From Phorcus lineatus (taxonomy: Eukaryota; Mollusca; Gastropoda; Trochida; Trochidae): a stretch of 64,000 nt of DNA. Both the position numbers and the translations under genes were made by a program. The stretch is from contig OV121096.1 of the NCBI GenBank assembly GCA_921293015.1, forward strand, positions 25,741,729 through 25,805,728, read 5' to 3'. Under the pieces are notes generated by a model. It was given only the letters and a program-made list of their open reading frames with translations, made no database searches and was not told where the DNA came from. Positions 13,901 through 57,068 of the stretch are shown here, piece after piece. The first letter of the stretch is position 1. Every line of letters starts with the position of its first letter.

Positions 13901-16900
13901 CCTAAATATTCCTAGGTCAACTTTACATGGGGTTTTATAAGGTAGAGGGTAAATGTAAGGCCTTGCTGTTAAAAAGTGATATCAATATAAGCAGCCTTTA
14001 GTGGCATTATTCCCCATATCCACAAACAACGATAAGCTTACAATGGCTTGGATATTCCGGTTGGCATCCTAAATTATATCATGCATGATTTGATCACCTT
14101 TATTTAGCGTGCCCATACTTTCAAAGAAGCTAAATACAGAGTAATTACGAGACATGTTAATACAAACAGGCATGTCTTTATAAAACAATATTTTCATCGT
14201 TTGACTGTTCTTTAATAACATCACGTTTACATACTATTAAACCTGAATATGATTTGCATATACTCTGCTCTGACTTTGAACGCATAAGAGGAATCTATGC
14301 AAATAAAAAAACTTAGTGTGAGCTATATGTTCCACTCCTTCGGGCAATAAGAATTTTTTCCTTGTCATCGATCTTCAGATCGAACTTCTATTTTTGACGT
14401 TTTACCATCAATGACAATCTATAAAACTTTTGTCTACACTTTAGAAAAGACAACTTATGTTGAAGAATTAAATATAGATGTTGATTGTATTTATAGAATT
14501 ATTGTTTTTAGAATTTCAAGTGATGATATGAAAGTAAATGCCATATAAAGTCTCAAAATACGACGTACAATTTGAGAACGAATCTCAGAGAAAATCAAAG
14601 ACAATACAGAGCATCAATACAACCAAAATAGGCATGTAATCATCCATCTTCTTAATTATCTACTAGAGGGTTTATGTTCGCTTGTACTAAAAAAAAGAGC
14701 CATATACATATTTCAGAAGATAAATCAAAAATTCTTTTCTCAGCGGAAAAGATACATTATCTTTTCAATCTAGACTATTCCAAAAACAAAAGCGCCGTTT
14801 ACAATTTTTTTTAAAATTTTCTTTTTATTTCCAATAAGATGTTTACATAGTTTGTTGTACATACATTGTAGACATATTGTATGTAGATGCAAATATACAT
14901 ACAAGAGTTAGATACAAAAGTAATTTTTCACATTGTATACAGGTTCAAATACATATGTATTGCAGGTCTATTATATTGCAAGGTTTTCATGATTTACAAT
15001 TTGTAGGATTCTTTCCCTTTCTGCTCATACTGTATATATTTGGTTTCACTAGTAAACAGATGGTATTTTATGGGTTATTATGTTTACCCTTTAAACCAAA
15101 AAGAATATTTTCTGGTGTTAAATCAATCAGTCCTTCAGCCAATTTATCTAGCCATTCTGCCAACTCCCTCCACACTTTTCTCACATGAGTACACTCACAC
15201 AGTAAGTGAATAATACTTTCAGGTAAATGCTTACAAAATGAACACAATGGTGAATCAATATATCCAATCTTATACAAACAATTATTGGTTATCAGAATAT
15301 GATGTGTTATTCTATACTGAAACCATTTAGATTAACACTGTGTGTGCATCTATTAGGCATCATATTAAACTATATCATTAAACATATCATTATTAAAACT
15401 AAATTGACATAATATTTGATACAAATGTTTACTTTTGTCAAGTTTTGAAATATTAAATGGAAGAATTGGGAAGGAGGATATTATTTTTCTCCTCAATGAA
15501 TGTAAAGTTTCTCTTTTTTAAAGTATTGATATGTTTCACTCTTAATACCTTGGTATGTAAGAAAATCGACAGCAATATCATATTTATCTACAAATTCTTC
15601 ATGAGACATAATAGTACCAGCGTAATTCATAATATTTCTTAAAAATGTTATTCCCTTTTCTTCCCATTTTCTGTAAAATATTGTTTTGCCACCAATCAAT
15701 ATATTACTTTTATACCAAAGAGATTGATTCAAAACATTACAGCAGAGATTCTCATCCTGGTAACATATTGTTAGAAAGTCAGCCCACGCTTTTACAACAT
15801 CTTGCCAGAATGTATTTGAAATAGTAGGCAACATACAATTTCCAATGTAAGCACCATCTGCAAGCCACAGTCTCTGACTATTCGGAATTTATATCAAAAC
15901 ATTTTTACTCCATATGGAACTGTTATGTAGCAATTTTTCAATCCAAACAATTTTTTTAGACTTCATAATATTTTTTAATATTGGAACATTGATTCCTCCA
16001 TTTTTAGCAGTTGATGTAACAGGTCTTTTAATTTTGTCTTTCTTTCCTTTCAAAACAAACTCAAAACATTTCTTCTGAAATGACTGAATAACATTATCTG
16101 GTGGACTTGGTATAGATGAGAAGAGATGTTTTAATTTTGAAAGAAATGAAGATTTTAACACTACATTTCTGCCCATTGGTGTCAGAAGTTTTAATTCCCA
16201 GCTTTTCATCTCTCTCTCATACGGAAGCACCCTAGTGCCACAGTAAAAAATGTTTTATCTCCTAATTAGAAGATACTATCACCTAATTAGGAGATAGTGA
16301 GTCCTAATTAGGAGATAGTTACGCCTAATTAGGAGATAAGTAACCCCTAATTAGGACTTAGTTAACACCTAATTAGGAGATAACTAAGTCCTACTTAGGA
16401 CATAGCTATTTCCTAATTAGGACTTAATTATCGCCTAATTAGGAGGTACTAATTAGTAAGTCCTAATTAGGAGATAGTTACGCCTAATTAGGAGATAGTA
16501 ACGCCTAATTAGGTGATAATTAAGTCCTAATTAGGACTTAGTTATCTCCTAATTAGGAGATAAATAAGTCCTACTTAGGACATAGCTATTTCCTAATTAG
16601 TTGATACTTTCTCGTAATTAGGTGATAACTAAGTCCTAATTAGGTGATAACTATCTCCTAATAAGGAGTTAGTATATCCTAATTAGGACTTAGTATGTCC
16701 TAATTAGGACTTAATATATCCTAATTAGGACTTAATATCTCCTAATTAAGAGATGGTTTATCCTAATTAGGTGATAGTTATGTCCTAATGAGGAGATGAT
16801 TAAGTCCTAATTAGGTGATAACTATCTCCTAATTAGGAGTTAGTATGTCCTAATTAGGACTTAATATCTCCTAATTAGGAGATATTTTCTTCTAATTAGG

Positions 16901-19900
16901 TGATATTTATGTCCTAATTAGGCGATGATTAAGTCCTAATTGAGTGATGGTACATGTATATCCTAATTAGGGGATACAAATTTTTTGACTGTGGCACTAG
17001 GATGCTTCCGTACTCTCAATTTTTTCAAGCTTATCTGAATAATTAATATCAACCATTCATTCCAAATCAACTTTAAACTTGATAACTAATCAATTAAACT
17101 GTGATTGTGTCCATCAAGGTGGTAATCCTTGCAAAGCTTGTATCTTGATCTCTTCTTAGATCCTATCCATATCAATATAGTTTTTTCAGTATTTACTTCT
17201 AAGTCCAGAAAACCTTGCAAAGAGTGTGAATACGTTGAGTACAGCATAAAGACTTTTTCCCATACAATCAGGAGTTAACGAAGGATCATCTGCAAAATAC
17301 TTTCAATATTTCCAATTTTAATACCCTTTATCCTTTTACCTTTTCTAATCATGAGCGCTAAGATTTCTACACATACTATAAATATGTATGGTGACACCGG
17401 ATCTCCTTGCCTACAACCTCTTGTTATTTTGAAAAAAGAGCTTCCAATTCCATTCACAAGAACACATGATTCAATATCATTTAGGAGAACAGAGATCCAC
17501 GTTTGTAGACTTGGTCCAAAATTAAAGACATTGAGTTCATTCTTGATAAAATGTCTATCCACGGAATCAAAGGCTTTCTCAAAGTCAATCATTAACAATA
17601 ATCCTGGAACTTGGAATGTCTCGGTGTAGTCCATAATAACATAAATAAGTCTAGTAACCTCCCCTATATATACCTACCTGGTACAAATCCTTTTTGATTT
17701 TCATTAACAATTGTTGGTAAAAAGGGTTTAATCCTTTTTGCAATGACTGCAGATGTGATTTTGTATGAAGTATTGAGCAAGGTTATGGGGCGCCAAGAGT
17801 TAAGAAACTGTTTAGGCTTATTGGGTTTTTGCAAACATGTAATAAATCCTTGTTTCTGGGTTACAGATAAGGAGCCATGCTCATAAGCATAGTTTAAGGA
17901 ATTAATCAAATATTTATTCAAATCATTCCAAAAGTATTTTTCAGTACACACAAGCATTCTTCATATGTTATTTCACCCTCTAGATTGGCTGATTCCATTG
18001 TAGATAAACTTGGGACATTTGGATCTGAGAACAAAGTCTCGAGATCTATCTCTGTACAATCTTCTTTAGAAAACATTTTTTTCATAATAAACTTTAGTTT
18101 CTTCTCAAATTTCATTTTGTTCATTTATTTTAGAGCCCTCATGTTTATAATTGACTTATTTAGAAAGTTTCTAGCTTCTAAATGCAGAAAATATTTGCTC
18201 GGTTTCTCTCCATGTTGCTTTTAATCTTATAAAGTGTCCTTGAGTTTTTTCTTTATTTATTTTTTCCAATTTTATTCTTGTATCAGTAATCATCTTCAGA
18301 ATATTTTCTCATATTGCGGTACTGTCAAAGACAATACCAAGCATTAATACAACCAAAATATGCATGTAATCATCTTTCTTCTTAATTCTCTACTAGCGGG
18401 TATCAGTTCGCTTATACTGAAAAAAGTCATACTGGTATACATATTTTAGAAGATAAATCAAAAATGCTTATCTCAGTAGTATCTTTTCAATCTAGACTAT
18501 TCCAAAAACAAAAGCGCCGTTTACAAATTCTTGAACGATTTTTAAGACTATACTACCCTATCTACGTTATCTAACCAATGATGCATTATGCATTACTTTA
18601 AACTTCCAACTGACACAATCAAAGAGTTTTATTCGTTTTCCGCTTACCCAAAATCGATACTGAAAACATCCTGAATAGCTCCAGAATTTGGAAAGTTGTA
18701 TTAGTATTTAAAACCTGTAGCACGCTGTATGATAATGATAAGACATGATTATTATAATAACAAGCAACTCGTTCATGAATAATTTTGTTTACCTTTTTTT
18801 CTACGTTTTTTACTATATGTTCACAAAATTCTCGATATTGAAATTACAAATGCGATCAGTCATGTAAATCATTTTCAATAATTTGTGTTTTAAATATCTA
18901 AATACTTTTATACTTATCATACTATGCTTTTATTTAACACAGATTTAACCTCATTAACCTGTTATGATCTACTGAATTTCAATGTAATAAGATAATATTT
19001 TTAAAATTTCATATATTCTCCTAACACTTTGTTTATCTTAGATAAACAGACACAACCAAACAGCGATCAACGGTTAAGTGTAATTTGATCTACTAAAATT
19101 ACCAATAACGATTTCACAAAATATACTTCCGCATATTACATTATGATGCCCTGGTATCAATTTCTCTTTGAAAGAATTATTTCTTCAACAAATCCTTAAT
19201 ATCATTGACAGTAATAACATATGATGTCAGTGCCTTCGTACATAGCCTAATATAAACGCATTTTATACGCACTTTGGTCTTCTTCATTTTATCAGCATCT
19301 TTATTGCTATACTGAGAACTTAAAAAGAATTCGACGGTGAAAGCAAAGGTACAAGCGTTATCGATTTGAAATAAATAAGTAATTTCCAACTCGTATTTTG
19401 ACTTAACTAATAATAAAAATGTTATATTTGCCACAAATCTAAAACGATTCTTAAGGATAAAACATTTATCCAACGTGTACATTTCCAAAAGTAGCAACTA
19501 TAGCTTATCGATCGAATTATGGGGAAGAGTTTCGTCTACAAAGCGTTACATACTTGTGTGCGGAGAGTGGTTTTAATAATGCTACTTAACAGTTGGACTA
19601 GCCATTAGCAAACAAAGAGGTTAAAAGCCGAAAAAAGCAAAAATGAAATTCATTAAAAGTTTGTTTTCGATAGGATACTATGATAATAGTTGTAAAGCAA
19701 AAAATAGCAATGGCTTCACGGGATCAGTACTACTGGAAAGGAATTTGTATTCCATACAATATAATTTTATAGGTAATTTATCGTTGAATAAGTAAGATTG
19801 CAGGGTTGCATACCCCTAAAAAGTTGAAAATCAAAAGGAAATGATGATTATTTTTCAATTTGTGAGTGGCGCTGAGAGCACGCCCTTTTGGTGTTGAACC

Positions 19901-22900
19901 AAGCGCAATATAGATGTGTTCATCATTATTTTTATAGGTTTATATTCTATATATATATATTACATAAAGTCATAGCATAAGGGGCTGGTCCTGAGCGATT
20001 CTTTCATATCTAATTCCAAGACCTGCACGAATTCAGAGATTATTATTATTACACCAGGTGACAGGTCATTAATTGGTTACCAGGGCTACGCAAACCGGAT
20101 TTTCAACATTTTCTTAACAACTATTTGTCCTTTAATCATGAATCTTGTGTCAGAAAATGGTTTTAAACACGACAAAATACATTTGTCAATCGATACGAGA
20201 TAACTAAATGTCAGACATAACTTTGTAATTTTATCTGAATTATTTACAGTAATTATAGAAATACATTTTACAGTTTTATAAGACTGCAAATATAGACGAC
20301 AAAAAATTTCTTTTCAAGGAAATAAATATACATGTACTTCGGGCTATTTCATATTTATCGAAAGTGGTTTTGGATGAAGCTGACGAAACAAAATAGGTGG
20401 AGGAGAATATTTTTTAAATTTATCATCCAATTACATTAGGATTACCTAAAATTATTCTAATAAAAGTTCATACACAAATGTACATGAACTCTGCAAATTG
20501 TGCATGTCAGTTTCACAGTACATTGTTAATCTATCACTCTTTGGTTACACTCTGTTTATATTGTAATACTGGGTTTTTAAAAAAACATTAATTGTGATAA
20601 CTGCAAATTTAAAGACAATTTTGCTTTTTGTATTGCGGATATAGATTGGAGTTGATTTGTAAAACGTTGGCAAAATATAACATTTAAAAGGAAAAAACTT
20701 GTTCCATTTCTTATAAAATTATTCGCCTTGATGAAATCATCTTACGAGGGGAAGTCAATAAGTTCATAGAATTAAGTATGGATACACTCCTGAAAACATC
20801 ATCGTTGATGTCATCATCTATGTTCCCGATCATTTCCTTGAGACTTACAGCCTGTTTAACACAGGTACCCTCCAGTAATCATTGAAAGTTCTAAAACTGA
20901 GCATCATACAGTTATCAAGTTTCTCACAAAAGAAGGGGTTAATGCGACCGAAATACATAAGCGTATGATCAATGCGTATGGGAAAGAAGCCCCTAAATAT
21001 TCTACTATTACAAAATTGTCGGCTTAGTTTAAGCAGGGTCGCAGCTCCTTGGACGATGACCCACGGCCAGGAAGGCATGTTGAAGCCATTACAGATAATA
21101 TGTTTGCACGGGTACAGGGTTAATCTTATCCGATCGTAGAATAAAGTTGGACGAGATACCTTCAGAGTAAGGTATTTCTCAAGGAAGTGTTTGCACCATA
21201 ACTCACGAGCCTGTGCACATTGAATCTAGTCGTGGGCTCTTGGATATCTACAATGCTGATCCCCATAACTTCCATGCCCGCCAGGAGATGAATCGCTGAT
21301 TCATCACTGGGATCCTGACACCAAGCAAGAATCCATGCTGAAGCAAAAGCACTCTCCTGCACGCAAGAAATTCAAACCTCAGCCTTCTGCTTACAAGATC
21401 ATAGATTTCTGGACTACTTAAAAACTATAAACCACCTATACCTACAATAACAGGAGCCTACTATGCTGACTTGTTGAAGCAATTGTAAGCGGTGATCAAG
21501 AAGAAGAGGCGCGGCAAGTTGACTGGTGGAGTTATGCTTCTTCCTGACAACGCCCCAGTGCACAAGGGTCGTATCGCACAGCCTGGACTTCAACAAGGTG
21601 GCTTTGAACAACTTAACCATCCCCCCTACGGTACAGATCTGGCCTCAAGCGACTTCAATCTGTTTCGCAATTTGGAATCACACTTGCTTGGTACAAGATT
21701 TGACGATGCTGATGAAGTCAAGACAGCTTCTGAGGCGTGCATGAGGTGCCGGTCAGAAGACTTCTACCGAAAGGGCACAGACAATCTAAAAAAACGGGTT
21801 AAGTGCATCGAGGTCCAAGGAGATTATATTGAAAAACAAAATCAATATCACAACCATTGCCTTCCGCTTTATATCCTTGAACTTATTGACTGCCACTCGC
21901 GTGTTACATAAAATATTTGTTTATTTATAAACTGAGGGAAAATTTAAATAATTACAAATAAGTTTAAAGGTAGAAAGTGCTTATTTAAAAATGGCCGATG
22001 TTTTTTTCTCGTTCACAATTGTTTTCGTTTACTTAAGCTTTACAAAGAAAGTGAGGACGGTGATATTTGCGTGTGACTAAAGCGCAAAATAAAAACAAAT
22101 GAAACTGGTGTATTGTAAATAATTTAAAACACACTTTAAGATATCGTGTTGACATTCATGTGAACTAGATATAGGATACTTTAACAAAACAATGTCAAGA
22201 TATAGGTAAAATTTATAATTTTGATTTAATCTCAATTTCTACACTACACTATTCACTTTAAATGGACCTGATTTTTAAATAAAATACAATTTGTTTGATA
22301 TATCTACCGATTTGGAAACTGTCACAACGAATCTTAGAATTGATTCTTTGTGTATTCATCACTCACTGTAACATTTGGAGAAATAAAAAAAATGATTAAA
22401 AAAGTTAGAATTCATTCTTTTGCGTATTCAAATCTCACGGTAACAATTTTGAAAAGTAAACCCAAAAAAACAAAACTAGAATTGGCGACAAGAACATCTA
22501 ACAATTGTTACCGCACAATGCTAATATTTTCTTACATTTGAAAAACAAAGAAAGCACCTAGGATATCAAATTAGCAATAACCATACTAATTCTTAAGAAT
22601 GATCATACATATCTTAGTGTGTTTTATTCATAAACGAGATTTTTTCAAGTTTTCCATTTATACTGAAATTGAAGATGACACTAATTAGAAATGGATTAAA
22701 TTCAACCATTCGAAGATGAATTTCATACTTAGAAAGATACCAATTAACTTATTTTTTAATAAGTGATGTTGTCCATGTAACGTTTCAATTTCTGTCCGTT
22801 GTTTAAAGTTTGAATTAAAAGTTTCAACTACACCTTATCAACATGGGGTCAATAATACTTGATAAATGAAACAATACTTTGCATTTTTACCTTCATATTG

Positions 22901-26173: not shown

Positions 26174-26261
26174 CACAGGTGTTTGAAGTCACTCGGGTAG
26201 TGTCGTCGGTCTTCTACCTGGGCAAATGAATGGATGTATTATGTATACTTTGTCATGTAAT

Positions 26262-26960
26262 ATCCTATACAATCTCAAGTAATAGCATGTACATACTAAA
26301 GTAATATCCTGTACATACTAAAGTAATATCCTGTACATTCTCAAGTAACATCCTGTACATACTAAAGTAATATCATATACATACTAAAGTAATATCCTGT
26401 ACATTCTCAAGTAATATCCTGTACATACTCAAGTAATATCCTATACATTCTCAAGTAATATCCTTTAAATACTAAAGTAATATCCTCTACTAAAGTAATA
26501 TCGTGTTCATCAAAATGGCGTTTTGATTTTAAACATGTTGCGTACGTGTTTCATTCATAACATGTTGCTAAATGTGTTAAAATTGCTAAACAAATAATTT
26601 ATTAATTGATGTAAATCAAAAAATGTTTCAAATATAAACACATATAACACAAATATAAACTCATATTAAGTTATAAGTGTAAGAGATTAAGTATAAGAAA
26701 GCATGTGTACTCAAGTACATGTAATATCCAGTACATACTAAAGTAATATCCTGTTCATACTCAAGTAATATCCTTTAACGTACTCAAGTAATATCATATA
26801 CATACTAAAGTTATATCCTTTACATTCTTAAGTTATATCCTTTACATTCTTAAGTAATATCCTGTACATTCTCAAGTAACATCCTAATTTGCTCACGTAA
26901 TATTCTTTACAAACTCATTCAATATCCCTAACAAACATATGTAATATCCTATAATTACTA
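26262..26960. repeat. ~22 bp minisatellite upstream of gene A
   Basis: Unit AAAGTAATATCCTGTACATA with variants, in two blocks (about 26262-26510 and 26716-26960) separated by ~200 bases of non-repetitive AT-rich DNA. It begins ~90 bases upstream of the gene A start codon. Confidence 0.85.
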
Positions 26961-29394: not shown

Positions 29395-29919
29395 GTCACG
29401 AATTAACAATTTATTTTCTTATCAAAATTTAAAAGTTTGACTTTATTTTCAAATAGGTATATTTCCTGTGTTTGATCTAGCGAAATCTCATAAACGATAT
29501 AAAGTTTGACAGTGAATTCCTTTGCACATTGCAGGCTGATATCATCAAGCACATGAGTCACAACACCTTGACGTCAAATACTGATGACATCAGAATGTTA
29601 TGAGGTCATAGCATCGATGACGTCACAATGCATTGATCAGGCTATACTGCTAGTATTTTATCAGTGAGGTGTTTAGTGATATACATTTGTCATTGGAATA
29701 AATCAACATCAAATTGGAAGAGAAATACAATATCATTGATGATGTATATCAACACATTATGTATGTAAACAAGAGTTTAAAATAGTCCCCAGAGTTGCTG
29801 AGGAGAAAAATGTCAGGTGAAAATCAAATCTTAAACTTGCATATAATCATGAGTTTAAAATAAGTGTGATTAAATGTTCAGGCACAAATCTCTATAAAAT
29901 AACTATTGAGGATTTCATA

Positions 29920-30410
29920 TGCTCACATCCCACATGTCAATAACCAATCACTGAGGGTTCAATATGCTCTGACTCGCTCATGTCAAAAACCAATCACTCA
30001 GGGTTTCATATGATCACACCCGAACGTTACCAACCACTGAGGGTATCATATGCTCACACCCGGACCTGTCAGTAACCAATCACTGAGGTTTTGATGCTAA
30101 GATACGAATATGCAGATTAACAATTACTTTAGGTTTGATGCTTAGATACGAATATGCAGCTTAACAATATTCACGCAAGGTTTCATGTTAATATACGAAT
30201 ATGCAGCTTAACGATCAGTTTAAGTTTGATGCTCAGATAGGAATATGCAGCTGAACAGTCACTTTAGGTTTGATGTTCCGATAGGAATATGCAGCTTAAC
30301 AATCACTTTAAGTTTGATGTTCAGATAGGAAAATGCAGCTTAACAATCACTTTAGGTTTGGTATTCAGATAGGAAAATGCAGTTTAACAATAACTGTAGG
30401 CCTTACATGC
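29920..30410. repeat. Two adjoining 42-44 bp tandem repeats
   Basis: About 29920-30090 repeats a unit containing AACCAATCACTGAGGGTT and ATATGCTCACACCC. About 30090-30410 repeats a unit containing GATAGGAATATGCAGCTTAA and CAATCACTTTAGGTTTGATG. Confidence 0.8.
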
Positions 30411-31379: not shown

Positions 31380-31860
31380 ACTACAGACATGGGTGTTTAA
31401 GTATCGTCAGTGCCATTGGGTAAACGCAGCTTAGATAAAGTGGATCACTGTTCCAGAATCACAAAACAAGAGTAACGTGTGCTGCCACCATGTGCCTGAA
31501 AAACTGCAGCCACTCCTCACTTCTTCCTCTTACCCCTAACCTGGTTCCTTTATTTACCATCGTTTTCCGCTGCTTTCCCTGAGGTCTTCCTTCTTTGTAC
31601 CCGACGGCCCATTATGTCCAAAACATGTTCGATTGGATTCAAATCAGGGGAAACATTGGTGGTCATGGATTTCGTGTCACAGCACTTCTAGCCAGATGTT
31701 GGTTTAAAGTATGTGAACGACGAGGTCGCACATTGTCGACCATGAAAGAGGGTCTTGTGATAAGACTATGGTCATCGAAATGTTGAGTAATTACAGGATC
31801 AAGAACCTCCTAAATGCAGCGAGCACCTGTGAGTGAACCATGTATAGTTGTTCCATGCAA
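31380..31860 (-). pseudogene. Tc1-like transposase fossil, C-terminal part
   Basis: On the minus strand, after the junction at 31860, broken frames read LHGTTIHGSLTGARC, VITQHFDDHSLITRPSFMVD and SPDLNPIEHVLDIMGRRVQ, the last near 31658-31599. These are typical of Tc1-family transposases. It continues the fragment at 36777-37330; a 4.9 kb element lies between them. Confidence 0.8.
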
Positions 31861-32079
31861 TCTGGGAATGATCACAATCTGCAGATTGTTCGCTCACAAT
31901 CTGCAGATTGTTCGAACAATCTAGGAATATTTTTCATTCCTAGATTGTTTAAACAATCTGCAGATTGTGAGACCTGAACAATCTGGGAATGATCACAATC
32001 TGGGAATTTGCTTGTTTGTAGAATATTTTGCATTGTAAAATGAGCTTATTTAGGTTTTTATTTTTGTTTATTAGATTGT

Positions 32080-33840
32080 GACAGGTTCATAGCTCGCCTT
32101 TATGTCAAATTGAGGGAGTATAGGGGTCGATTCCTAGATTGTGAAGGGCTAACATATTGTCGTTATGTCAAACTGTGAGGGTGTATGGGTCGATTCTCAG
32201 ATTGTGAAGGGCTTACAGCTCGCCTATATAACATACTGAGGGAGTATTGGGATCGATTCCTTGATTGTGAAGGGCTCACAGATCGCCTATGTGTCAACCT
32301 GAGGGAGTATAGGGGGTATAGGGATCTATTCTCGGATTGTGAAGGGCTCACAGCTCGCCTATATGTTAAACTGAGGTAGTATATAGATCGATTCCTAGAT
32401 TGTGTAGGCCTCATAGTTCACCTTTATTCAAACTTAGAGGGAGGGTATAGGAGTCGATTCTCAGATTATGAAGGGCTCACAGCTCGCCTTTATGTCAAAC
32501 TGAGGAGAAAAGGGGTCGATTCTCAGATTGTGAAGGGCTCACAGCTCGCCTTTATGTCAAACTGCGGGAGTATTCGGGTCGATTCCTAGATTGTGAATGG
32601 CTCTCAGCTCGTCATTTTGTCAAACGGAGAGGATAGAGGGGTCGATTCTCAGATTGTGAAGGGCTCACAGCTCGTCTTTATGTCAAACTGAGGAGAAGAG
32701 GGGTCGATACTCAGATTGTGAAGGGCTCATAGCTCGTCATTTTGTCAAACGGAGAGGGTAGAGGGGTCGATTCTCAGATTGTGAAGGGCTCACAGCTTGC
32801 CTTTATGTCAAACTGAGGAGATGAGGGGTCGATTCTCAGATTGTGAAGGGCTCACAGCTCGCCTTTATGTCAAACTGAGGAGAAGAGGGGTCGATTCTCA
32901 GATTGTGAAGGGCTCATAGCTCGCCTTTATGTCAAACTGCGGGAGTATTCGGGTCGATTCCTAGACTGTGAAGGGGTTACAGATCGTTATTTTGTCAAAC
33001 GGAGAGGATAGAGGGGTCGATTCTCAGATTGTGAAGGGCTCACAGCTCGGCTTTATGTCAAACTGCGGGAGTATTCGGGTCGATTCCTAGATTGTGAAGG
33101 GCTCTCAGCTCGTCATTTTGTCAAACGGAGAGGATAGAGGGGTCGATTCTCAGATTGTGAAGGGCTCACAGCTCGTCTTTATGTCAAACTGAGGAGAAGA
33201 GGGGTCGATACTCAGATTGTGAAGGGCTCAAAGCTCGTCATTTTGTCAAACGGAGAGGGTAGAGGGGTCGATTCTCAGATTGTGAAGGGCTCACAGCTTG
33301 CCTTTATGTCAAACTGAGGAGAAGAGGGGTCGATTCTCAGATTGTGAAGGGCTCACAGCTCGTCTTTATGTCAAACTGCGGGAGTAAATGGGTCTCTTTT
33401 CAGATTGTGAAGGGCTCACAGCTCTCATTTATTTGAACTGAGGGAGTATAGGAGTCGATTCCTAGATTGTTAAGCGCTCACAGCTCTCCTATATGTTAAA
33501 CTGAGGTAGTATGTGGATTGATTCCTACTTTGTGAAGGCCTCATAGCTCATCTTTATGTCAAACTGAGAATGTAAAGGAGTCGATTCTCAAATTGTGAAG
33601 GGGTTAAAGCCCACCTATATGTCAAACCGAGGGAGTATACGGGTCGATTCCTAGATTGTGAAGCTCTCATAGTTTGCCTTTTTTTCAAACTGGGAGGGTA
33701 TTGGAGCGCGTCTGTATGTCAAACTGAGGGAGTATAGGGGTCTATTCTAAGATTGTGAAGGGCTCAGATATCGCCATTATGTGAAACTGAGGGAGTATAG
33801 GAGTCGATTCCTAGATTGTGAAGGGCATTGCGCTTGTCTT
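32080..33840 (+). repeat. Left array of ~62 bp satellite unit
   Basis: Unit core GGGTCGATTCTCAGATTGTG then AAGGGCTCACAGCTCGCC and TTTATGTCAAACTGAG. There are roughly 28 copies with higher-order alternation of GAGGAGAAGAG- and GCGGGAGTATTC-type spacers. Long open frames here (for example 32414-32163) are by-products of the period. Confidence 0.9.
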
Positions 33841-34859
33841 TGTTTGTTGATTTCGCTTGTATGGGGTTCAATTCACATATTGTGAATATGTGGAGGTAGA
33901 AAACTAAATTTGTATGTCGATTCTGCGATTTTAGATTTTCATTAATCATAGTTTGCAGTGACCCGTATAACACTGTCTGGAGGGTGTTACTATTTATGTA
34001 GAAGTAAGAATTAGTTCTTATATGTGTAAAAAGTTTGCGTATGGAAATCAATAAATAACAATTCATTATGAAAAGTAAACTTATTATCTGAAAAGTTAAT
34101 TACACTGAAATTTAATTCTTCACTCTCGCTTATTCAACTTAAGTTAGGTTAACTGAGCATAATTATACTATCTGTATCATCACAAAACACTAATCTCCTT
34201 TGGTATGAATTACTTGCATAGACACTTACACTTACAGGGTACAATGAAGGAAATAGTCTCGTGATGCTAAAAAGAGTTTCAAACATCAAAGACAACAAAT
34301 TCTGATTCTTATATTTATTGTTCATTATGGAAACTTGATAACTGTTACCTTTTCCCCTAATTGTCTTCCTGGATCGTGAGATTGAAAGTTTTTTATACGA
34401 AAGATGCAAAAATCGGAAAGTTACTTAATCTTTTGAGTTTGTATATAAACAGCTTTTAAATATATGAATTTATAAAATTTATAATACTCGAACAGTTAGC
34501 ATTTTGTGTTGTCGTGAATAATGAGCCCAGATGTCTAGCTGGGTCTGCTTATCAAAGCAACGTGTCACTGTGTCGCGTCACTACTCAGACATGCGCGTAA
34601 ATTTGCGTACAATCACATTAACTTCCTCTCTATAATTTGATGTTTATCATGGGGCAAATACTTATGCAATAATGAATTGTCTGGAGTAAAATGTTTAATT
34701 GCTCTTCGGTCACACTATGGTCAACATTTTGACACATATTTTTCTTTAACGTTTTTAATAGTTTCCGTTATATCGGTTTGTGAATTTCACAAAGAAATGT
34801 TTTATTTGATTTATTTGTTATCTGTTCATGATTCAATATTGTAAGAAAAAATAAAATAA

Positions 34860-35267
34860 AATCCATATTAAGCATTCTCTACCTTTGAATTTGGTACAGA
34901 TGTAATTAAAAAGCTATAAAAATCGGTTGGGATTATTTATGAAATGATACACAGATATTATTAGGGATTCGTTAGCACTCTGTGACAAGGATTTGTCGCC
35001 GCTCAAGGTAGATTTTAATATTATATCGTTTTTTAAAAAGTATTGATTTGATCGGAATCTATCATATAGTGGGCATTCAAAGAAATAATGAAAGGGATCC
35101 TCCCGAATGTTTCCACAAGAACAGGCGGGATTTACTAACAACAGTAAGTGGACTTGCTTTGCGTAGTATATTTTCAATATGATGCTGCCATTTTCCATTT
35201 TCATCTGTGTAAACATGTTTTTATACCCCCGTATATCACGTAAAGTCGACCTATGAGCCCTTAACAA
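34860..35267 (-). pseudogene. LINE ORF2 C-terminal remnant in foldback centre
   Basis: The minus-strand frame at 35267-34914 contains CSCGNIREDPFHYFFECPLY, the Cys-Cys-His-Cys motif at the end of many non-LTR retrotransposon proteins. It is cut at the array boundary. It resembles the remnant at 28850-28910. The rest of the centre (33841-34860) shows nothing recognisable. Confidence 0.65.
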
Positions 35268-35269
35268 TC

Positions 35270-36545
35270 TGCGAATAGACTCTTATACCCTCTCAGTTTG
35301 ATAAATAGCCAGCTATGAGCCCTTCCCAATCTGAGACTCCTCTACCCTCTCAGTTTCATATATAGGCGAGCTACATGTATAAGCCATTCATAATCTAAGA
35401 ATTGACTCCTATACCCTCTCAGTCTAAATATAGATTAACTGTTAGCCCTTCACAATCTGGGAATCAACACCTATACCCCCTCAGTTTGACATATAAGCGA
35501 GTTGTGAGCTCTTCACAATCTGAGAATCGACCTCTATATACTCCGTCAGTTTGATTTGTAGGCGAGCTATGAGCCCTTCACAATCTGAGAATCGGCCCCT
35601 ATACTCCCTCAGTTTGGCATAAAGACAAGCTATGAGCCCTTCACAATCTGAGAATCGATCCCTATACTCCGTCAGTTTGACATATAGGCGAGTTGTGAGC
35701 CCTTCACAATCTAGGAATCGGCCCCTATACTCCCTCAGTTTGACATAAAGACGAGCTAGGAGCCCTTCACAATCTGAGAAACGATCCCCATGCTCCGTCA
35801 GTTTGACATATAGGCGAGTTGTGAGCCCTTCACAATCTGAGAATCGACTGCTATACTCTCTCAGTTTAAATAAAGGTGAGCTGTGAGCCCTTCACAATCT
35901 GGGAATCGACCCCTATACCCCCTCAGTTTGACATGAAGACAAGCTATAAGCCCTTCAAAATCTGAGAATCGATCCCTATACTCCGTCAGTGTGACATATA
36001 GGCGAGTTGTGAGCCCTTCACAATCTGAGAATTGACCCCTATGCCCCCTCAGTTTGACAAAAAGACGAGCTAGGAGCCCTTCACAATCTGAGAATCGATC
36101 CCTATACTCCGTCAGTTTGACATATAGGCGAGTTGTGAACCCTTCACAATCTGAGAATCGACTGCTATACCCTCTCAGTTTAAATAAAGGTGAGTTGTGA
36201 GCCCTTCACCATCTGGGAATCGACCCCTATACCCCCTCAGTTTGACATAAAGACGAGCTATGAGCCCTTCATAATCTGAGAATCGATCCCGATACTCCGT
36301 CAGTTTGACATGTAGGCGAAATGTGAGCCCTTCACAATCTGAGAATCGACTCCTATATACCCTCTCGGTTTAAATAAAGGTGAGCTATGAGCCCTTCACA
36401 ATCTAGGAGTCAACCCTTACATCCCCTAAGCTTGACATAAAGACGAGCTGAATGTCCTTCACAATTTGGGAATCGGCCCCCATACCCCCTCATTTTGAGA
36501 AAGAGACAAGCTGATTGCTCATCACAATCTAGGAATCGATCTAGG
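35270..36545 (-). repeat. Right array, inverted copies of the ~62 bp unit
   Basis: Same unit in reverse: GAGCCCTTCACAATCTGAGA, ATCGACCCCTATACC and CTCAGTTTGACATATAGGCG. Around 20 copies. Confidence 0.9.
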
Positions 36546-36776
36546 AATCGCTAAATAGAAAAACCTTAATAAGCTAAATAATTCCCATTCTATAATGATG
36601 AAAATACTAATAAAACACACATTCCCAGATTGTGATCATTCCCAGATTGTTCAGGTCGCACAATCTGCAGATTGTTTAAACAATCTAGGAATTCCTAGAT
36701 TGTGAGCAAACAATCTGCAGATTGTTCGAACAATCTGCAGATTGTGATATACCCCAGATTGTTCGTAACATAGTCA

Positions 36777-37855: not shown

Positions 37856-39617
37856 GCACTTAGGCTAAACATGAGTCATTAGAAGTGAAAAATCGGAAAA
37901 CACCCCAAAGGCTCCATTTCATAGAGGGGGTAATACAAAGGCAAAGTTTCAGTAAGATATAAATTTCTAAAATTTTCAAAACTGATAAAATCAAAAGGCA
38001 CCACTCCAGTACATGTAGGTTTAAGATACATATGCAAACATTTATATATATGTTATGAACAGAGTCAGCACTGTTCCGGAAACAAAATGATTACGGACAG
38101 ACGGACAGGGAGATGACATTATCCCATGGTATGACATTAACTATTGAAAGAACTTACTCATACATATATATCATCTTGAATAGTACGATGTATTTCAGGT
38201 ATTAGAGCAACATTTGTATTAATAATTACCATAGTACATTTACGTCCTTTCTTTTGACATAGCCAATAACTTGTTTGTCATACGTTGACGTAATGCTGAT
38301 GACGTCAATATGTAAATGCAGATGTGTAATGCGCGTGAAATCGTTGGCGTTCTTTAAGCAAACTTAATCTTAAAATTGGTATACAGAAAGGCAAAATCAT
38401 GATCACGAAGCTGTGTGTACATTCAAAATAATATTAACCAACAACGACGCCTCACTCTACACTTGATTTTATCGTTTTTTAATTAAATGTATAAATACAT
38501 TTCTGTAAACAACAAACGTTTGATGACATAACAACTTATATTGCAATATACTTTTTCCGAGGCGTTTTGGAAGATCCACCGAAAACTGATCTATTGTACC
38601 ACAACATACGCAGAGAATTACATTTTAGAATGCTGAGACACTACATTTAACTACAATTCAGAATTTTTAAATTAAGGCCAAGCTTTGGCTGTAATGTCAC
38701 CATGGGGGCAAGTGAATGGTGCTCAAGAATAATTTGGGCCGCAAGAGAAATGAATAGTCATAAAACGATGATGTGACATTGCTTACCTCAGGTCGCAAGT
38801 AGCCTTTTAATCCTGTGAGAGACGAACGGGCCAAGATGTGCCGTGTTGACGATCTGAAAGCAAGTGCTTGTTATTGATCGACGAAGAGTCGGGTATCTGG
38901 CTCCTTATTGATTTGATTCCACTTACTTCCGGGTGGATCACAAGTTGGAGACAATCTCGGAGCTAATGGAAGACCTGACAAGAGAACAAAACGGGTAGAT
39001 CAAACTTGAGGGGTTCTGTTGCAGTTTGGAAAGTCGATTTCGTCTGACGGAGGAACATCAACTTCGGTCTAGAACGTATGGGTAGGAAACTGTCTTTTTG
39101 TAGTGTTCTACGGGGATAAATGTTTGTGAAAGGATTCAAGAAAACACAAAAAAGCCAGAGAAGACAATCTTTGGGTGGGGAGATTTCAGAAGAGCTTTTT
39201 CCAGAGAAGTAACAGAAGACAAGATCGAAACAAGAACTTTGAGTAAGGAGGCAAAAGAAAGCAGTTAGAGAAGCCATGCTTCTAACAAAGAAGTACAAGT
39301 AAACGGGTCTGGGAAAAAGTAAAAGCAGACATCTCGGACTAACAAAGAGAAAGCAAGCTTGATGTAACGAAGAGAAAAGAGGAGTTGGAGATTAAGGAAA
39401 AAAACGATTTTGGGCAGGCAGATCAAAGAACAAATGCCCGATATGTCGTAGAACTGAAAGAATAACTTACTGTGTCACGATCGAGAGAAATACGGCCTAA
39501 GAAATTAAGAAAGCGGGTTAATCACAATCTTAACGAGAGGTAATGGTATAAATTAGTCAAGAACAGAGATACCATTCGTCTGTGAACTAAAGCAATCGTG
39601 TCGATTTGAACTAAATC
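37856..39617. other. Upstream region of gene B
   Basis: No gene recognised. Bases about 38985-39440 are purine-rich (AAGAGAA, GGAAG) and may hold regulatory sequence or an untranslated exon; nothing firmer can be said. Confidence 0.4.
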
Positions 39618-39625
39618 TATATAAG
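39618..39625 (+). promoter_or_regulatory. Candidate TATA box of gene B
   Basis: TATATAAG lies 71 bases before the gene B start codon, leaving room for a start site near 39650. Position and motif only; no initiator was verified. Confidence 0.4.
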
Positions 39626-39688
39626 ACTGATCCTGGGAAACCAATTAGACGGCAAAAAAGCGTTAATGGTATCAACAACAAGGACACA

Positions 39689-40025
39689 ATGAAGAGCCCA
39701 GTGGTATACGCTTTAACGTCTTTTATGACCTTGCTTCCTTTCTCATTTGCTCAAAAGGCAGCGACATGGGACGAATGTCTGTGCAGATGGGAGAAATGGG
39801 CTGCTTGGTCCAAGTGTAATAAACTCTGTTACGGTCGCCAGATTCGCTACAGGGCTGTCTGGAAGAAAAGCGAACCTCAATGCAGTGGGTTCGACGTTTG
39901 TGACCTTGGAAAAGGAGGTCGTCAGATCCGCAGATGCAATAAGAAGTGCACGAATGGACATTGGGACGAAGCAAAAAAAAAGTGCGTTTGCCCCAAGGGG
40001 AAAAGTGGCGTGTGCTGCAATGAAG
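39689..40025 (+). CDS. Gene B exon 1: signal peptide and TSP1/EGF-like segment
   Basis: ATG at 39689. Signal MKSPVVYALTSFMTLLPFSF is followed by AQKA. Next comes W-x2-W-x2-C (WEKWAAWSKC), GRQIRYRAVW and paired cysteines as in thrombospondin type-1 repeats. It ends with CTNGHWDEAKKKCVCPKG, an EGF-like half. Donor GTATGG, phase 1. Confidence 0.88.
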
Positions 40026-41969
40026 GTATGGTTTGTTTTCAATCTTATAGGATGATTTATATTAGTATGGATTTTGGATAAAAATAATATTACTGTTCTT
40101 TTATCTAACTTTGTTCCACTCAATCTGCGTGAATTTTCATCGGTGAAATTTTGAGGTGCAATTTAATGTATAGGTATTTAAGATGTTATATTTGGTTATA
40201 TATTTAAAACTAATTTTCTGATTTTAACAGTTTTATATCGTAACATCTTATAGCATCAACTGTAGAATCTGTACAAATTATTTTAAGAAAGGCCATCTGC
40301 AAAAAGTCATCAATGTCAAATATATTTAATTAAAAAAGCTTGAATTATATAGGCCTAATCCTTTCGTTTCACGTTTAAATTTTCGCGAGATGTTTATTTC
40401 GTTAAAGAATTTTCTTTAATAAATGTAACTTGGTTTCATTAATATGATGAGTGTTTCTCAAAGTTAATCTTTGTTAACTCATTGTGACGATAATTTTAAG
40501 TTAGGTCTGAAAGAAATCTGAAGAAACAAATAATCTCATATACGGAAAATATCTAAAATAACTCGAAAAATATATTTTTCGTACCAAAAAAAAATGGAAA
40601 AATGAAATTATTAAATCACAAAATTTTCAACTGCGATGGTAGAATGTGTTTCGTGGGAAGGGAAATGACATAACATATATAATGATGTATTATATGTTAT
40701 ATGACATTTTGATTGATATCTTAACATTGACATTGACATTGATTTTGACACTGTAGCGCTGAAACTAATGCCATAAAAGAATTGTTGTTTGGGGAAAGTA
40801 AACAATGAAAAACGGGCCTCCAAACCGCTCAAATGTACAAACTCGTGTAATGTTTCCTCAATTACCACAGCTTAATGCATTTTCTGTGCCTTAAATAATA
40901 CAAATGTATAACCCAATCGAAAATTTCGTTACCACATCCCGCCTTTGTTAGAAACTTGGCTCCATGGGGTATTCGGGACATATTTGAAATTCAACACCGA
41001 GTAAATATAAACATCTTGGCTCACGAAAGCTTTTAATTCACTTTAAATCTCAGGGGTTGATTTAAGAGTTATCATGTTTTACTTTAGATAATAACAATCC
41101 ATCCAAGTTACTTGTAGGAAAATCATTCTGGTTTCATTTTAAAATGCTTTAACGAGATATCTTTACTCATATGAAGTAATTGTCTGACGATTTTGTCCTT
41201 ATAATTTAGAAAACAGAACAAACAGCAGATGTCATTAAACAATATAAATATTGCCAAAGAGGGAGAGGAGGGGGGTTATCAATGATAATCATCGAGGTTT
41301 TACCTGTGAATTGTACTGAGGTTAGTGGAGAGGGTTTGTGTTAGGAAGATTCAAGTGAATTAAAGTAATTATAAAACTAAAATTAAATTCATATTTCAAA
41401 AGAAAATCTTGAAATAGTATACCGTCATTTACAACACTAGGTAAAGTTGTGTCCAGTGTTCTTGAGAAGAAAACTGCGATGCCCTCGTAAAAGTTTTCAA
41501 GATTAATACCTAGCGAGAGTATTTACCTTAACTATTCACACGCCACATAAGCAAAGCACACAGTAGGGTGTTTATTAACTTGAAAAAAAGAAAATTTACA
41601 AATATTTTGTTGACGTTTTACAACTTTGTAGACATTTATTATAAATGATTATTTAATGATGATTTAACTCCAACATGGAGGAATGTTAGAACTTTTAAAA
41701 ATATAACCTGATAATTTAAAAAAATGTACATGCTCAAAATATGGTGACGGTTATCTATAATCAATTGAATTTATTCTTGAAGACCATAATCAAACTTTCA
41801 CTCTAAATGTCTTTATCACGAAATATGATACTAATGTACATAAAACATGAATTCAAATGTATTTTCATTACTTCAAAATCAATTTTATGACCTTTACAGG
41901 ATGAAAACAAATCATGCTTGAATTTATCGAAATAGAAATGAAATAGACGAAGAATATTCGACAATCTGC

Positions 41970-45000: not shown

Positions 45001-48000
45001 ACTTCAATTGAACCAATGACACTTATCAACAGCAACAAACATTGATCTTCATTTTCCATTACAGGCAACATAGAGAATGCTAAACGAAGTGTCGTTTAAT
45101 AACGTTTTTAATGACACGAGTGAGTAGTGTGGTATTTAGCGAGCGAAAGCAAATTACATAGCAATACCATTCACGAGTTTCATCAAAATGTTATTAAAAT
45201 GGATTGAGTTTAGTTTTTTGTTTATTACTCGCTTATCTTAACTAAAAAATAGCATTAAAATTGCTGATATTGCCATTGCTGCCTTGCCGCTTACATTCTG
45301 ACGTCATGCTTAACGATTATGAAACGTGACGTCAGTCAGCAGCACGCGATTTTATGACACAAAGTATTATAATAACATTCTTGATTTATTAAACGGTGGT
45401 ATCTTCAACGGGCGAGTAATAAATGGCGAATACTAAACGACGTCCACTTTAATTATATTTTTTATGAAACGAGATATTGGTTTGGTATTTAACGAGCGAA
45501 AGCGAGAAAGTGAAAATTGACTAAGCTAAGGTAATAGTAGTTATCTATCGACACGTTAGTAAAGTGATGTGTCCGTTTCTTCATTTCTAGATGATTGTTT
45601 TGTCCACTATCATTAATAACGTTAAAAAAAACTTTTTTTCTTAAGAGACGATCTATATTTATTTATAAAGGATACACATTTTCTAATTTATAATCAGATA
45701 TCAAATGCGCTGCACCAAATCCCTTCGAGAACGGCAGACCAGACAAAACGGTGGTCGACTATGGCGGAAAGATCGGTTTCGAATGCGACAAGGGGTACAC
45801 GTTGACAGGGGACGCAACTGTTATCTGTCGGGACAATGGCTTGGACGGGTCTATTCCATCTTGTGAGGGTGAGTATCGGTTGAATCTTTGAATTGAAGTT
45901 ATTCTTCAACTTCTGAAAACTATGATGACGGTCCACACTTTGAGCCGTAGCCGATTTTCTGTGATTGAATAATGAATTTATTTGAAGTTATTTTTTCCAG
46001 TGTCCAATATGCGACGGTGGGCTTCGCATATTGTTTAGCTGATAGCCTCAATTATATCTTTAGTAAAGGTACGCTACCCGTCCGAGTTTTTCGATTTTTT
46101 TAATCAGAGGACGATGTTGGAATTATTTTCTCATTTTAAAAGAATGCGAGGCGATGATATTTTGAAAATGATATTACATGTACAAGAGACTAGGGCGCTA
46201 AGTGTTTAATCGTCGACTCTTTTCTATATTGTTGTTTTTCCTAATACACGTGAAAAAATAAAAGGTGAGCATAGCCATAAGAGGGATTAAGCCCTAAAGA
46301 GATCAGGGTATTAGGAAGGAGCGAGCTGATTTTGCAGGATGGACTTCATGGAAACAAAAATTTATACTTAATTTTCATGGAATCAAGTTGAAGTTACACT
46401 CTGTACACGGATAACTTCATTTCCAGAGCAGAACAAAACAGGTGTTTATATCTTGAAATTTGCTTGTATGGAACCCACCTATTGAATAGTTGCGTTTGAT
46501 CCAAACAGTTTTAGGGAAGAAAACGATTTCTGTTTCCATGGAAACAATTAGAAATTGGACTCTCTAGACTGAGATCTTCATTTCTAGGGCAGAACTATAA
46601 AAATGCTTATCATATCTTCCTGTTTTCTGATGCAGCTTTGAACCCTTGTAAGAACAACCCCTGCACCAATGGTCGTGTATGCGAGGTGGACGGGTCAAGT
46701 TACACCTGTAACTGTCCGAAGGGAATGACCGGTCCTTCATGTAACATAGGTATGTAGACATAGATGATGAAACTCCCTCTTTTCAGACAAGGCCCAGATG
46801 TCGGATAAGAGGGAATTTGATTGTGGGGATGCCGATTAAGATATGAATATAAATACAGATCACACATTTATTCTAAGTAAACGTTAATTTTAAGTCTTTT
46901 ATCAGGTAGACATTGATTGAAGTTTTTTTTAGAAAGGATTTAGTTGGGCTTTTTGTGTGTCGAATAAGAGATAAGAGAGTTTATAATTATTTACTGAACT
47001 AGATTCCAGGAAGGGTTTTATAAATTTATTTAAAATAATCTTTTAAATTATGAATATGATTTTCAAAAGGCATTTTCTCGAGTACCTACATCCAGACATC
47101 TTTAAATTATCTCGACGAGTTAAAAGGTTTATGATTAAAAGTAAATGTTTAATTTTAAAAAAGAGTCTAGCTCTTATGGGTAATAATTTCGAAATTTGGT
47201 AATTTATTTAATGTTTCAATTAGGCAAAATGATGGAATTGAAAACCCTTAAACGTTTTAATATTAAATATGAATTGACTTGTGAAACTTTAATATGAACA
47301 AGATCTTTTAATGAGATTTATAATGACAAAGTACATCAATCAAAAGTGGTGAAGTCATAAGTCATGAAACTTACAATTCTGTTCGTGTTACTGTACTGCA
47401 ATTTCACCACTGCCAAAAGTGCGTCACCAAAAAAAAAGTTTAAGTTTTTAATTGTGAAATGTAAATAAAGAAAATACATCTGAAGGGACAGTGTGATTAC
47501 TTCTAACCGTTTCTGTATTTCCCAGATGCCTCGCCACCGGAAGTTGTCAATTGCACCGATGACGTAAGACTGAATTCCTCAAAACGAAGAATAGAGTACA
47601 GTTGGACATCCCCGACCTTTGTTGACCCTCACGGAAGTGACGTTGATGTTACGTCTAACTACCCAGAACCCCACTTCCTGTTTCCATGGGGTGACTTCGA
47701 AGTGCAGTATATTGGCGTGAAAAGGTCAAACGGAATGAGAGCCAAGTGTCAATTCAATGTCAAAGTCAGACGTACGTATTCGTCATATTTTCATCCATTT
47801 GTTGACCACTAATAGCAGTAATTTATCTTCTGTTGTCTCAGGTGAAATTTAACGTTCTATGAAAGAGAACATCTTATCTATAGGATTAAAATAAGAACTT
47901 CATTAGATGACATAAGTTAACATCTCTTTTGCAAAATAAATTGAAGTTAATAATTTCAAGTTCGATTGAGAATGGTAGTTGAAGTAACAGAAAAGAGCGT

Positions 48001-56550: not shown

Positions 56551-57026
56551 GAAATTCTCTCACGATATTCAAAACATACACAAAAACTTTTAATAGACCT
56601 GAACTTTATGTATTTCACCACATGAAAAACTACCCATATCCCTTGTCCATTAACGAAATATGTGCAATAGGAAACTTTTGACATGGCTGACAGAATGTAT
56701 TAAAATCAAAGACCTTCTATTTGAAGCGTATAAATCTGTCACATTAAAACCGGAAGCAAAATTGGTCCTACTAAGCCCGATTGCTTTTCAATTCATTATG
56801 GTCATTGTGTTGAAAAACACAAGGTCTTGCTTAATTTAATGCGTTTCAAGAACGACAATGCCATGCATTTGGAAGATGTCAAACCCAACATGATTTCAGG
56901 TAGAATTTTGCCTGAGGTCAAATTAGTCCCCTCTGTAAATGACCAATGTAAAGACACAATCAGAGACATACACACACATAGAATTTTAGAAACAGTGACA
57001 CTCGGACAGAAGTAAAAGAAATTTGT

Positions 57027-57033
57027 TATAAAA
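57027..57033 (+). promoter_or_regulatory. Candidate TATA box of gene C
   Basis: TATAAAA 42 bases before the gene C ATG. If used, the 5' untranslated region would be very short, about 10 bases. Confidence 0.35.
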
Positions 57034-57068
57034 CGTCACCGGCGTTGAAACTACGATTACACTTCGGC

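Follow-up and report, generated by a model that had tools for sequence, protein, structure and literature searches.

The 64,000-nucleotide stretch of the Phorcus lineatus genome analysed here (the window) contains, within a LINE, a dense tandem array of palindromes centred on the hexamer TAATTA, a core that is common to many homeodomain sites. The locus raises the question whether such an array serves the host, serves the mobile element that carries it or has no function at all. The element measures 793 bp and lies at positions 16220-17012 of the window, exactly as given in the initial annotation, which had described it as transposon-like with clean terminal inverted repeats and a CTCTCA duplication. 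The coordinates were confirmed, as were the 25-bp terminal inverted repeats (TIRs), which differ by one mismatch (TACGGAAGCA[C/T]CCTAGTGCCACAGT), and the CTCTCA on both flanks, which constitutes a 6-bp target site duplication (TSD). The features are as follows:

15493..16213, minus strand: host LINE, downstream portion of the coding region that the element interrupts (from open reading frames and the frame of the empty site)
16214..16219, no strand: left TSD, CTCTCA (direct reading)
16220..16244, plus strand: left TIR, 'C end' (TACGGAAGCACCCTAGTGCCACAGT), a 24-nt pattern of which is repeated genome-wide
16245..16260, plus strand: left linker, A/T-rich, leading from the TIR to the array
16261..16971, plus strand: tandem array of 33 palindromic units, broader consensus TAWSTCCTAATTAGGAGWTA (from 1215 units of 42 copies)
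16972..16987, plus strand: right linker, A/T-rich
16988..17012, minus strand: right TIR, 'T end' (TACGGAAGCATCCTAGTGCCACAGT on the minus strand)
17013..17018, no strand: right TSD, CTCTCA
17275..17673, minus strand: LINE reverse transcriptase fragment, RVT_1, E 1.7e-12 (domain match of the adjoining open reading frame)

Removal of the element together with one CTCTCA leaves the LINE frame open across the site and continuous from position 15888 on. The restored frame, the adjacent RVT_1 fragment and the occurrence of the same ends in many copies all support the earlier suggestion that the array moved into the LINE as a unit. No open reading frame of at least 100 aa lies inside the copy in the window; only the LINE-side frame 15889-16254 touches the element, and it gave no Pfam match.

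The 24-nt terminal repeat was found with up to two mismatches at 471 ends (238 + 233) in the species' own 958-Mb genome, the reversed control giving 0. The genome-wide count proposed in the initial annotation thus makes the element a multi-copy one and, since many copies bear the same ends, not a single copy with unmatched ends. Pairing of neighbouring ends less than 2 kb apart gave 76 two-ended copies of 138-1286 bp, a few of which may be compound, above all the two longer than 1 kb, and three of which (L036, L037 and L038) have a common flank and represent one insertion spread by duplication. The TSD is an exact 6 bp in 47 of these 76 copies, matches at five of six positions in 12 and is worse in 17, and in an earlier set of 54 copies the exact TSDs comprised 34 of 6 bp, one of 5 bp and one of 7 bp. 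Eight of the 76 have T ends on both sides, and in an alignment of 27 copies the linkers formed the most variable class. The shortest copies also possess duplications (138 bp, exact; 155 bp, 5/6 matching), so a long array is perhaps not strictly required, or else these copies shrank after insertion. The exact 25-nt end was absent from the IMG/VR viral contigs.

TIRs common to the copies, a fixed TSD of 6 bp, a short non-coding body and many copies are the features of a MITE, and together with the array they lead to the conclusion that the element is a MITE-like non-autonomous TIR DNA transposon centred on a tandem array. Its 6-bp TSD does not agree with Tc1/mariner, piggyBac and Merlin, for which the portion of PMC10045372 consulted gives TSDs of 2 (TA), 4 and 8 bp, respectively. 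The length does fit a Polinton or integrase-type element (TSD 6 bp), and it also lies within the 4-10 bp of MuDR/IS256 (same portion of PMC10045372), so that a 6-bp TSD cannot by itself assign the element to a family. The element also lacks the hallmark of foldback elements (FB/Galileo/Tetris), namely long TIRs built of internal repeats: its TIRs measure 25 bp and enclose the array. The autonomous element which the initial annotation had proposed to look for by its ends did not appear in a partial search for a transposase-bearing partner: among 163 ends with at most one mismatch at the loci examined, two were followed within 120 bp by one site at most and were both read as remnants, and the four exact 24-nt ends in the genome with a non-array base (G or C) at position 27 all belonged to array copies. 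No terms for families with 6-bp TSDs were found in the part of PMC10294476 consulted, and none of the matches listed by a literature search for the sequences of the ends and units dealt with a transposon family, judging by title and abstract.

The array itself proved richer than the approximately 23 TAATTA palindromes first counted: 23 units are exact copies of CCTAATTAGG, 32 matches with at most one mismatch occur in the entire window, without exception inside the element (1.5 expected from shuffles), and the total becomes 33 when one unit with two mismatches is included. Regarding the period, first given as about 21 bp, steps of 21 and 22 bp predominate and are about equally frequent: 14 steps each in the copy in the window (n=35; six of the remaining seven result from looser matches splitting a step) and 933 versus 921 over the 76 copies (n=1988). 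Up to 37 sites were present per copy among the 54 copies counted, and at the CC/GG positions flanking TAATTA, uniformity across the 1215 units from 42 copies is 89-97%. Among the larger deletions that distinguish short from long copies, 51 of 85 fall within 0.12 of a whole multiple of the 21.5-bp unit, suggesting that array length varies largely through gain and loss of whole units.

The idea that all sites face one side of the helix fails at 10.5 bp per turn, where the 32 best sites have a vector strength of only 0.18 and are thus spread round the helix, so that a face is shared only between neighbouring sites; the best-fit period is 10.69 bp (vector strength 0.79).

Selection on the element and selection by the host can be told apart by comparing private with shared changes. 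For this comparison 34 full-length copies were used, with two-T-end copies and lengths outside 735-910 bp excluded. With 'shared' denoting a change in at least three of the 34 copies, a threshold picked after inspection of the data, the private:shared counts were 15:1 for the terminal repeat, 71:2 for TAATTA, 62:18 for CC/GG, 66:18 for the outer TA and 149:61 for the spacer. TAATTA accordingly differs from the spacer (p=3.7e-7) and from CC/GG (p=2e-4), and CC/GG does not differ from the spacer (p=0.30). At a threshold of at least two copies the contrast between TAATTA and spacer shrinks (71:20 vs 149:110, p=4e-4), and the terminal repeats show no significant difference from the spacer at either threshold (p=0.16 at two, p=0.08 at three). 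When a 6-bp window is moved over the unit, the minimum falls exactly on TAATTA, no other part of the unit being under as much constraint, as judged from the aligned copies. Not all hexamers matter, since CCTACTTAGG occurs in consensus units 6 and 16 (2/37).

The private changes tell a different story. In well-aligned places, i.e. those with no further difference within 6 bp, their rates per 1000 were 8.5 in the terminal repeat, 9.4 in TAATTA, 10.6 in CC/GG, 10.7 in the outer TA and 11.0 in the spacer, TAATTA and spacer being alike (p=0.54). Cells with shared changes (at least three copies) in the same places numbered 0/1288 for the terminal repeat, 3/4449 for TAATTA, 47/2926 for CC/GG, 46/2432 for the outer TA and 115/4840 for the spacer. 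Without this filter the private rate is lower in TAATTA than in the spacer (10.3 vs 17.8 per 1000, p=9e-5), an excess in the spacer which we attribute to misalignment. As the test depends on the alignment of repeats, it was repeated with anchors leaving out the tested 6 bp, on 73 copies after dropping those with a common 12-bp left flank; TAATTA then gave 58:1, and windows clear of the 10-bp core gave mixed ratios from few units (14:0 to 6:4). Comparison of the copies thus shows TAATTA conserved among multiplying lineages, with no sign of protection after insertion.

This pattern bears directly on the host role put forward in the initial annotation, in which the copies would act as mobile homeodomain sponges or enhancers. 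TAATTA is a common homeodomain core, and the hundreds of copies, with as many as 37 sites in a single one, would add up to many sites. In addition, E2F sites borne by MITEs in Brassicaceae may dilute E2F, according to the part of PMC12595863 consulted. However, the private rate of TAATTA, which resembles that of the spacer in well-aligned places, gives no sign of the host protecting the sites, the copy in the window sits in a broken LINE and the sites do not share a single face, all of which makes a host role very improbable.

The same conservation pattern argues against a CArG/SRF platform. CCTAATTAGG is exactly CC(A/T)6GG, and this 10-mer is named as a CArG box in an SRF site of mouse Acta2 in the section of PMC4524680 consulted. 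Such a reader would require CC and GG and tolerate changes of the inner A/T, yet the opposite is observed, TAATTA being kept and CC/GG as free as the spacer. As the shape of conservation is reversed, this reading, hardly credible to us, was dropped.

The palindromes might instead be kept for fold-back of the single strand or transcript into a hairpin, cruciform or long dsRNA. Folding of the element is indeed very strong and far above that of shuffles (RNA z -33, DNA z -34; 20 shuffles each). On the other hand, the arms outside the 10-bp palindrome show no covariation, positions +-6 to 8 matching in 50/99 cases as compared with 50.4 after shuffling, and CC/GG, which would be part of any stem, is unconstrained (62:18). 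A structural role is therefore very unlikely, and the conservation pattern likewise speaks against it. Because the units are palindromes, the array is nearly its own reverse complement (minus-strand matches are mostly of 74-79% identity) and the whole element folds back, which we read as a by-product.

A passive array deserves more weight, although we consider it doubtful. Here a functionless satellite-like tandem repeat would have been trapped between transposon ends, slippage and gene conversion maintaining its uniformity. The deletions near whole units are in line with this, MITEs bearing tandem repeats are reported from bivalves in the part of PMC5139131 consulted, and the reader protein is a candidate only. 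Homogenisation should, however, treat the highly uniform CC/GG in the same way as TAATTA, which is not what the private:shared counts of the two indicate.

Conservation during multiplication with no trace of it after insertion favours an array that acts in cis on mobility. The best explanation, which we hold to be probable by a modest degree, is a MITE-like transposon multiplied to a few hundred copies in which the TAATTA array would be a cis-acting mobility platform. The candidate reader of TAATTA would be the DNA-binding part of an unseen transposase or a host factor recruited by the transposase. It would occupy the array at intervals of two helical turns and, once loaded, help to join the ends or concentrate transposase, and copies without intact hexamers would have multiplied less. 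Subterminal clusters in which numerous short binding motifs adjoin the ends are known, for example, from En/Spm (TnpA) and hAT, where the motifs are transposase targets in autonomous elements, whereas the TAATTA sites in Phorcus are candidate targets only. The reader may possibly be homeodomain-like. A stronger version, in which a homeodomain-type reader (either a developmental regulator of the host or a transposase whose binding part resembles a homeodomain) is an essential transposition cofactor and the roughly 30 sites form a phased landing strip, seems unlikely; if it were true, the spread of the element would be tied to cells and times with such a reader, e.g. the germ line.

A precedent for a platform is provided by Galileo, whose TIRs contain tandem repeats with extra transposase-binding sites (PMC4079207, as far as consulted). 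Galileo and Tetris, foldback elements of Drosophila, likewise have tandem repeats within mobile elements, but these lie in long TIRs (Tetris unit ~220 bp; same part of PMC4079207), whereas in Phorcus they lie between TIRs of 25 bp. The bivalve tandem-repeat MITEs and pearl-type elements (DTC84, CvA) are also mobile units that lack coding sequence and carry an array in their interior, and DTC84 has a conserved palindrome near the repeat junction; their arrays reach at most six units in the part of PMC5139131 consulted, as compared with up to 37 palindromic 21/22-bp units making up nearly the whole element in Phorcus lineatus, which is also set apart by its 25-bp terminal repeat and 6-bp duplications. 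The Brassicaceae MITEs are similarly non-autonomous transposons that multiply a 10-bp factor site; the part of PMC12595863 consulted does not describe a phased array of tens of sites, and conservation in Phorcus is at the level of the element.

Arrays inside MITEs are usually viewed as passive seeds of satellite DNA. The comparison of private with shared mutations, which tells element-level from host-level selection, finds that TAATTA carries about as few inherited changes as the terminal repeats, but only during multiplication, and suggests that the TAATTA sites work for the spread of the element itself and not for the host. The presence within a repeat of a motif suggestive of a transcription factor thus need not imply host regulation. 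The same count can be applied to any array-bearing transposon family, and if our reading is right, internal arrays would be working parts of transposition.

The transposon-like element lies within a LINE that is coded on the opposite strand.

Window 16220-17012: element of 793 bp with 25-bp terminal inverted repeats that differ in one base.

CTCTCA (6 bp) stands on each side of the element, the adjoining ORF has a Pfam match to reverse transcriptase (RVT_1), and the LINE frame is continuous over the insertion site once the element and one CTCTCA are removed, which confirms the initial annotation of an inverted-repeat element inserted into a LINE with target duplication. Thirty-three units make up the element's internal array; 32 of these have at most one mismatch, versus 1.5 expected from the shuffled window. 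The approximately 23 palindromes proposed earlier correspond to the units with exact CCTAATTAGG (23/33); the steps, proposed to be about 21 bp, are mostly 21 or 22 bp, both equally frequent. Its anatomy places the element among MITE-like, non-autonomous DNA transposons, with a tandem array inside.

Other parts of the window also contain arrays. One 22-bp unit (GTAATATCCTGTACATACTCAA) forms two arrays (26253-26502 and 26721-26950, approximately 220 bp apart) with a two-turn period as in the TAATTA array, and about 11 copies of a 44-46-bp unit are found at 29907-30400. A foldback-like structure (31858-36750), the second element in the window combining palindromic motifs with arrays, carries CAATCTGCAGATTG palindromes at both ends (31875, 31897, 31954 and 36661, 36711, 36731), two tandem arrays of 63-bp units in inverted orientation (32073-33700 and 35247-36498; complementarity about 80%) and, judged by eye, a LINE-like ORF in the middle. 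Two similar cysteine-rich ORFs (39557-40081 and 56982-57452) and two HYR-domain ORFs (47507-47812 and 60639-60965) suggest duplicated neighbouring genes.

The genome-wide count shows that the element belongs to a family. In 958 Mb (74 contigs), the 24-nt end with up to two mismatches was found 238 times in forward and 233 times in reverse orientation, whereas the reversed control gave none; a DNA search yielded at least 95 matches from the best 40 of 412 candidates scored. The 76 two-ended copies of distinct sequence, a sample from the retrieved loci, range from 138 to 1286 bp; a perfect 6-bp duplication flanks 47 of them, another 12 match at 5/6 positions and the remaining 17 match less well. 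Among the 54 copies of an earlier set, exact duplications were of 6 bp in 34, of 5 bp in one and of 7 bp in one. Position 11 of the ends is C at one end and T at the other in 68/76 copies, and T at both in 8/76. The 34 targets, taken from early-retrieved loci and including one insertion site twice, show a preference of approximately G-W-W-W-N-C (chi-square 88 against 15 shuffled, reached by 0/5000 shuffles), with G in first place in 15/34, C in last place in 21/34 and A/T between. Copies at L036 (G000:C1:50889905), L037 and L038 (G000:C1:51155038 and 51162297) have identical flanks and so represent a single insertion spread by duplications of the surrounding DNA. At another locus, L066 (G000:C2:6292699-6293719), two short copies approximately 60 bp apart each have their own exact 6-bp duplication.

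An autonomous partner was not found among ends of the exact element type, neither among 163 distinct ends (up to one mismatch, at least 100 bp of inner sequence), where two carried no more than one site in the 120 bp that follow and look like remnants left by deletion, nor among the only four exact ends in the genome with G or C at position 27, all of which are array copies. An ORF at 21489-21911, which we take to resemble a mariner-type transposase fragment, had no Pfam match at E 0.001. Superfamilies with fixed 2-, 4- or 8-bp duplications are excluded by the 6-bp duplication, which fits the lengths given for Polinton (6 bp) and MuDR (4-10 bp) (PMC10045372), although length is no proof.

Since 21- and 22-bp steps are equally common, the sites drift around the helix. 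The vector strength at 10.5 bp/turn is only 0.18 in the window copy (best period 10.69 bp) and on average 0.23 in 32 longer copies (best periods mostly 10.7-10.8 bp). The idea that all sites face one side is therefore not upheld: neighbouring sites share a face, but for the array as a whole to do so the helix would have to be slightly unwound when bound. Units are also gained and lost, as 51/85 larger deletions in short copies fit whole units (within 0.12), a figure biased upwards by the aligner, which sets gaps by likeness. In the two shortest copies, of 138 and 155 bp, the duplication is exact or matches at 5/6.

Changes from the majority in 34 aligned full-length copies were sorted by unit position and number of carriers. 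Single-copy (private) changes should mostly have arisen after insertion, and those in at least three copies should mostly be inherited from copies still multiplying.

Table. Changes in 34 full-length copies. Columns: private:shared (at least three copies); private changes per 1000 in cells lacking a further difference within 6 bp (strict), with one neighbouring difference allowed, and unfiltered; strict-filter cells changed in at least three copies, where one inherited change enters several times.
Terminal repeats: 15:1; 8.5; 7.0; 9.3; 0/1288
TAATTA: 71:2; 9.4; 10.8; 10.3; 3/4449
CC/GG: 62:18; 10.6; 12.5; 13.4; 47/2926
Outer TA pairs (9-10 bp from centre): 66:18; 10.7; 13.1; 14.8; 46/2432
Other spacer: 149:61; 11.0; 12.8; 17.8; 115/4840

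Shared changes are rare at TAATTA compared with spacer (p=3.7e-7) and CC/GG (p=2e-4); these p-values are descriptive, because several thresholds and classes were looked at. The contrast with spacer persists in clean surroundings (67:2 versus 91:33, p=1e-5) and at A and T majority places (66:1 versus 46:17), has the same direction in the first 27 copies and is weaker at a threshold of two copies (71:20 versus 149:110, p=4e-4). In a 6-bp window sliding along the unit, the ratio is lowest (0.03) exactly at TAATTA; leftwards it climbs to 0.49, rightwards to 0.32. Of the two shared TAATTA changes, one brings the hexamer back in a unit with majority form CCTACTTAGG; this form occurs in 2 of 37 majority units, where hexamer loss is invisible to the count. 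A second count, with anchors lacking the tested six bases, gave 58:1 at TAATTA and 14:0 to 6:4 in windows outside the 10-bp core (1-3 units each). Terminal repeats differ from spacer in direction only (p=0.16 for at least two copies, 0.08 for at least three), the counts being small for a firm test.

Simple homogenisation, which would keep the array uniform, should protect CC/GG too, but CC/GG is statistically no different from spacer (p=0.30), which makes this account less likely. A role as a hairpin would depend on CC/GG and on covarying arms, and the arms 6-8 bases from the unit centre do not covary (50/99 matches versus 50.4 in shuffles). Strand folding is very strong (z -33 as RNA, -34 as DNA, 20 shuffles each), as expected from any palindrome array.

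Private rates in these 34 copies give no sign that the host protects TAATTA after insertion (TAATTA versus spacer p=0.54 strict, p=0.30 with one difference allowed). The unfiltered rate is lower at TAATTA (p=9e-5) and runs against simple equality; we take this spacer excess as misaligned units, since it vanishes with the filter. The suggested role as homeodomain sponge or enhancer for the host thus finds no support here, conservation being limited to multiplying lineages.

Array-bearing MITEs occur in bivalves (PMC5139131) and MITEs that multiply a factor site in plants (PMC12595863); the likeness lies in the internal array and in the multiplied site, respectively. As far as the available text of these papers goes, the present element differs in the short, phased palindrome unit that fills it and in conservation of the core at the level of the element. 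Our literature search, judged by titles and abstracts, found no homeodomain/TAATTA tandem-array transposon.

As read from the aligned copies, conservation is seen only in lineages that multiplied and is centred on the hexamer, for which the simplest account is that something would read TAATTA during mobilisation. Judged by sequence, SRF makes a plausible candidate, as the 10-mer of the element equals the CArG box in the SRF site of mouse Acta2 in the available text of PMC4524680, but its requirements are the reverse of the pattern conserved here. The reader of TAATTA may rather be the transposase, in analogy to the extra transposase sites held by Galileo repeats (PMC4079207, available text), or alternatively a host protein of homeodomain type.
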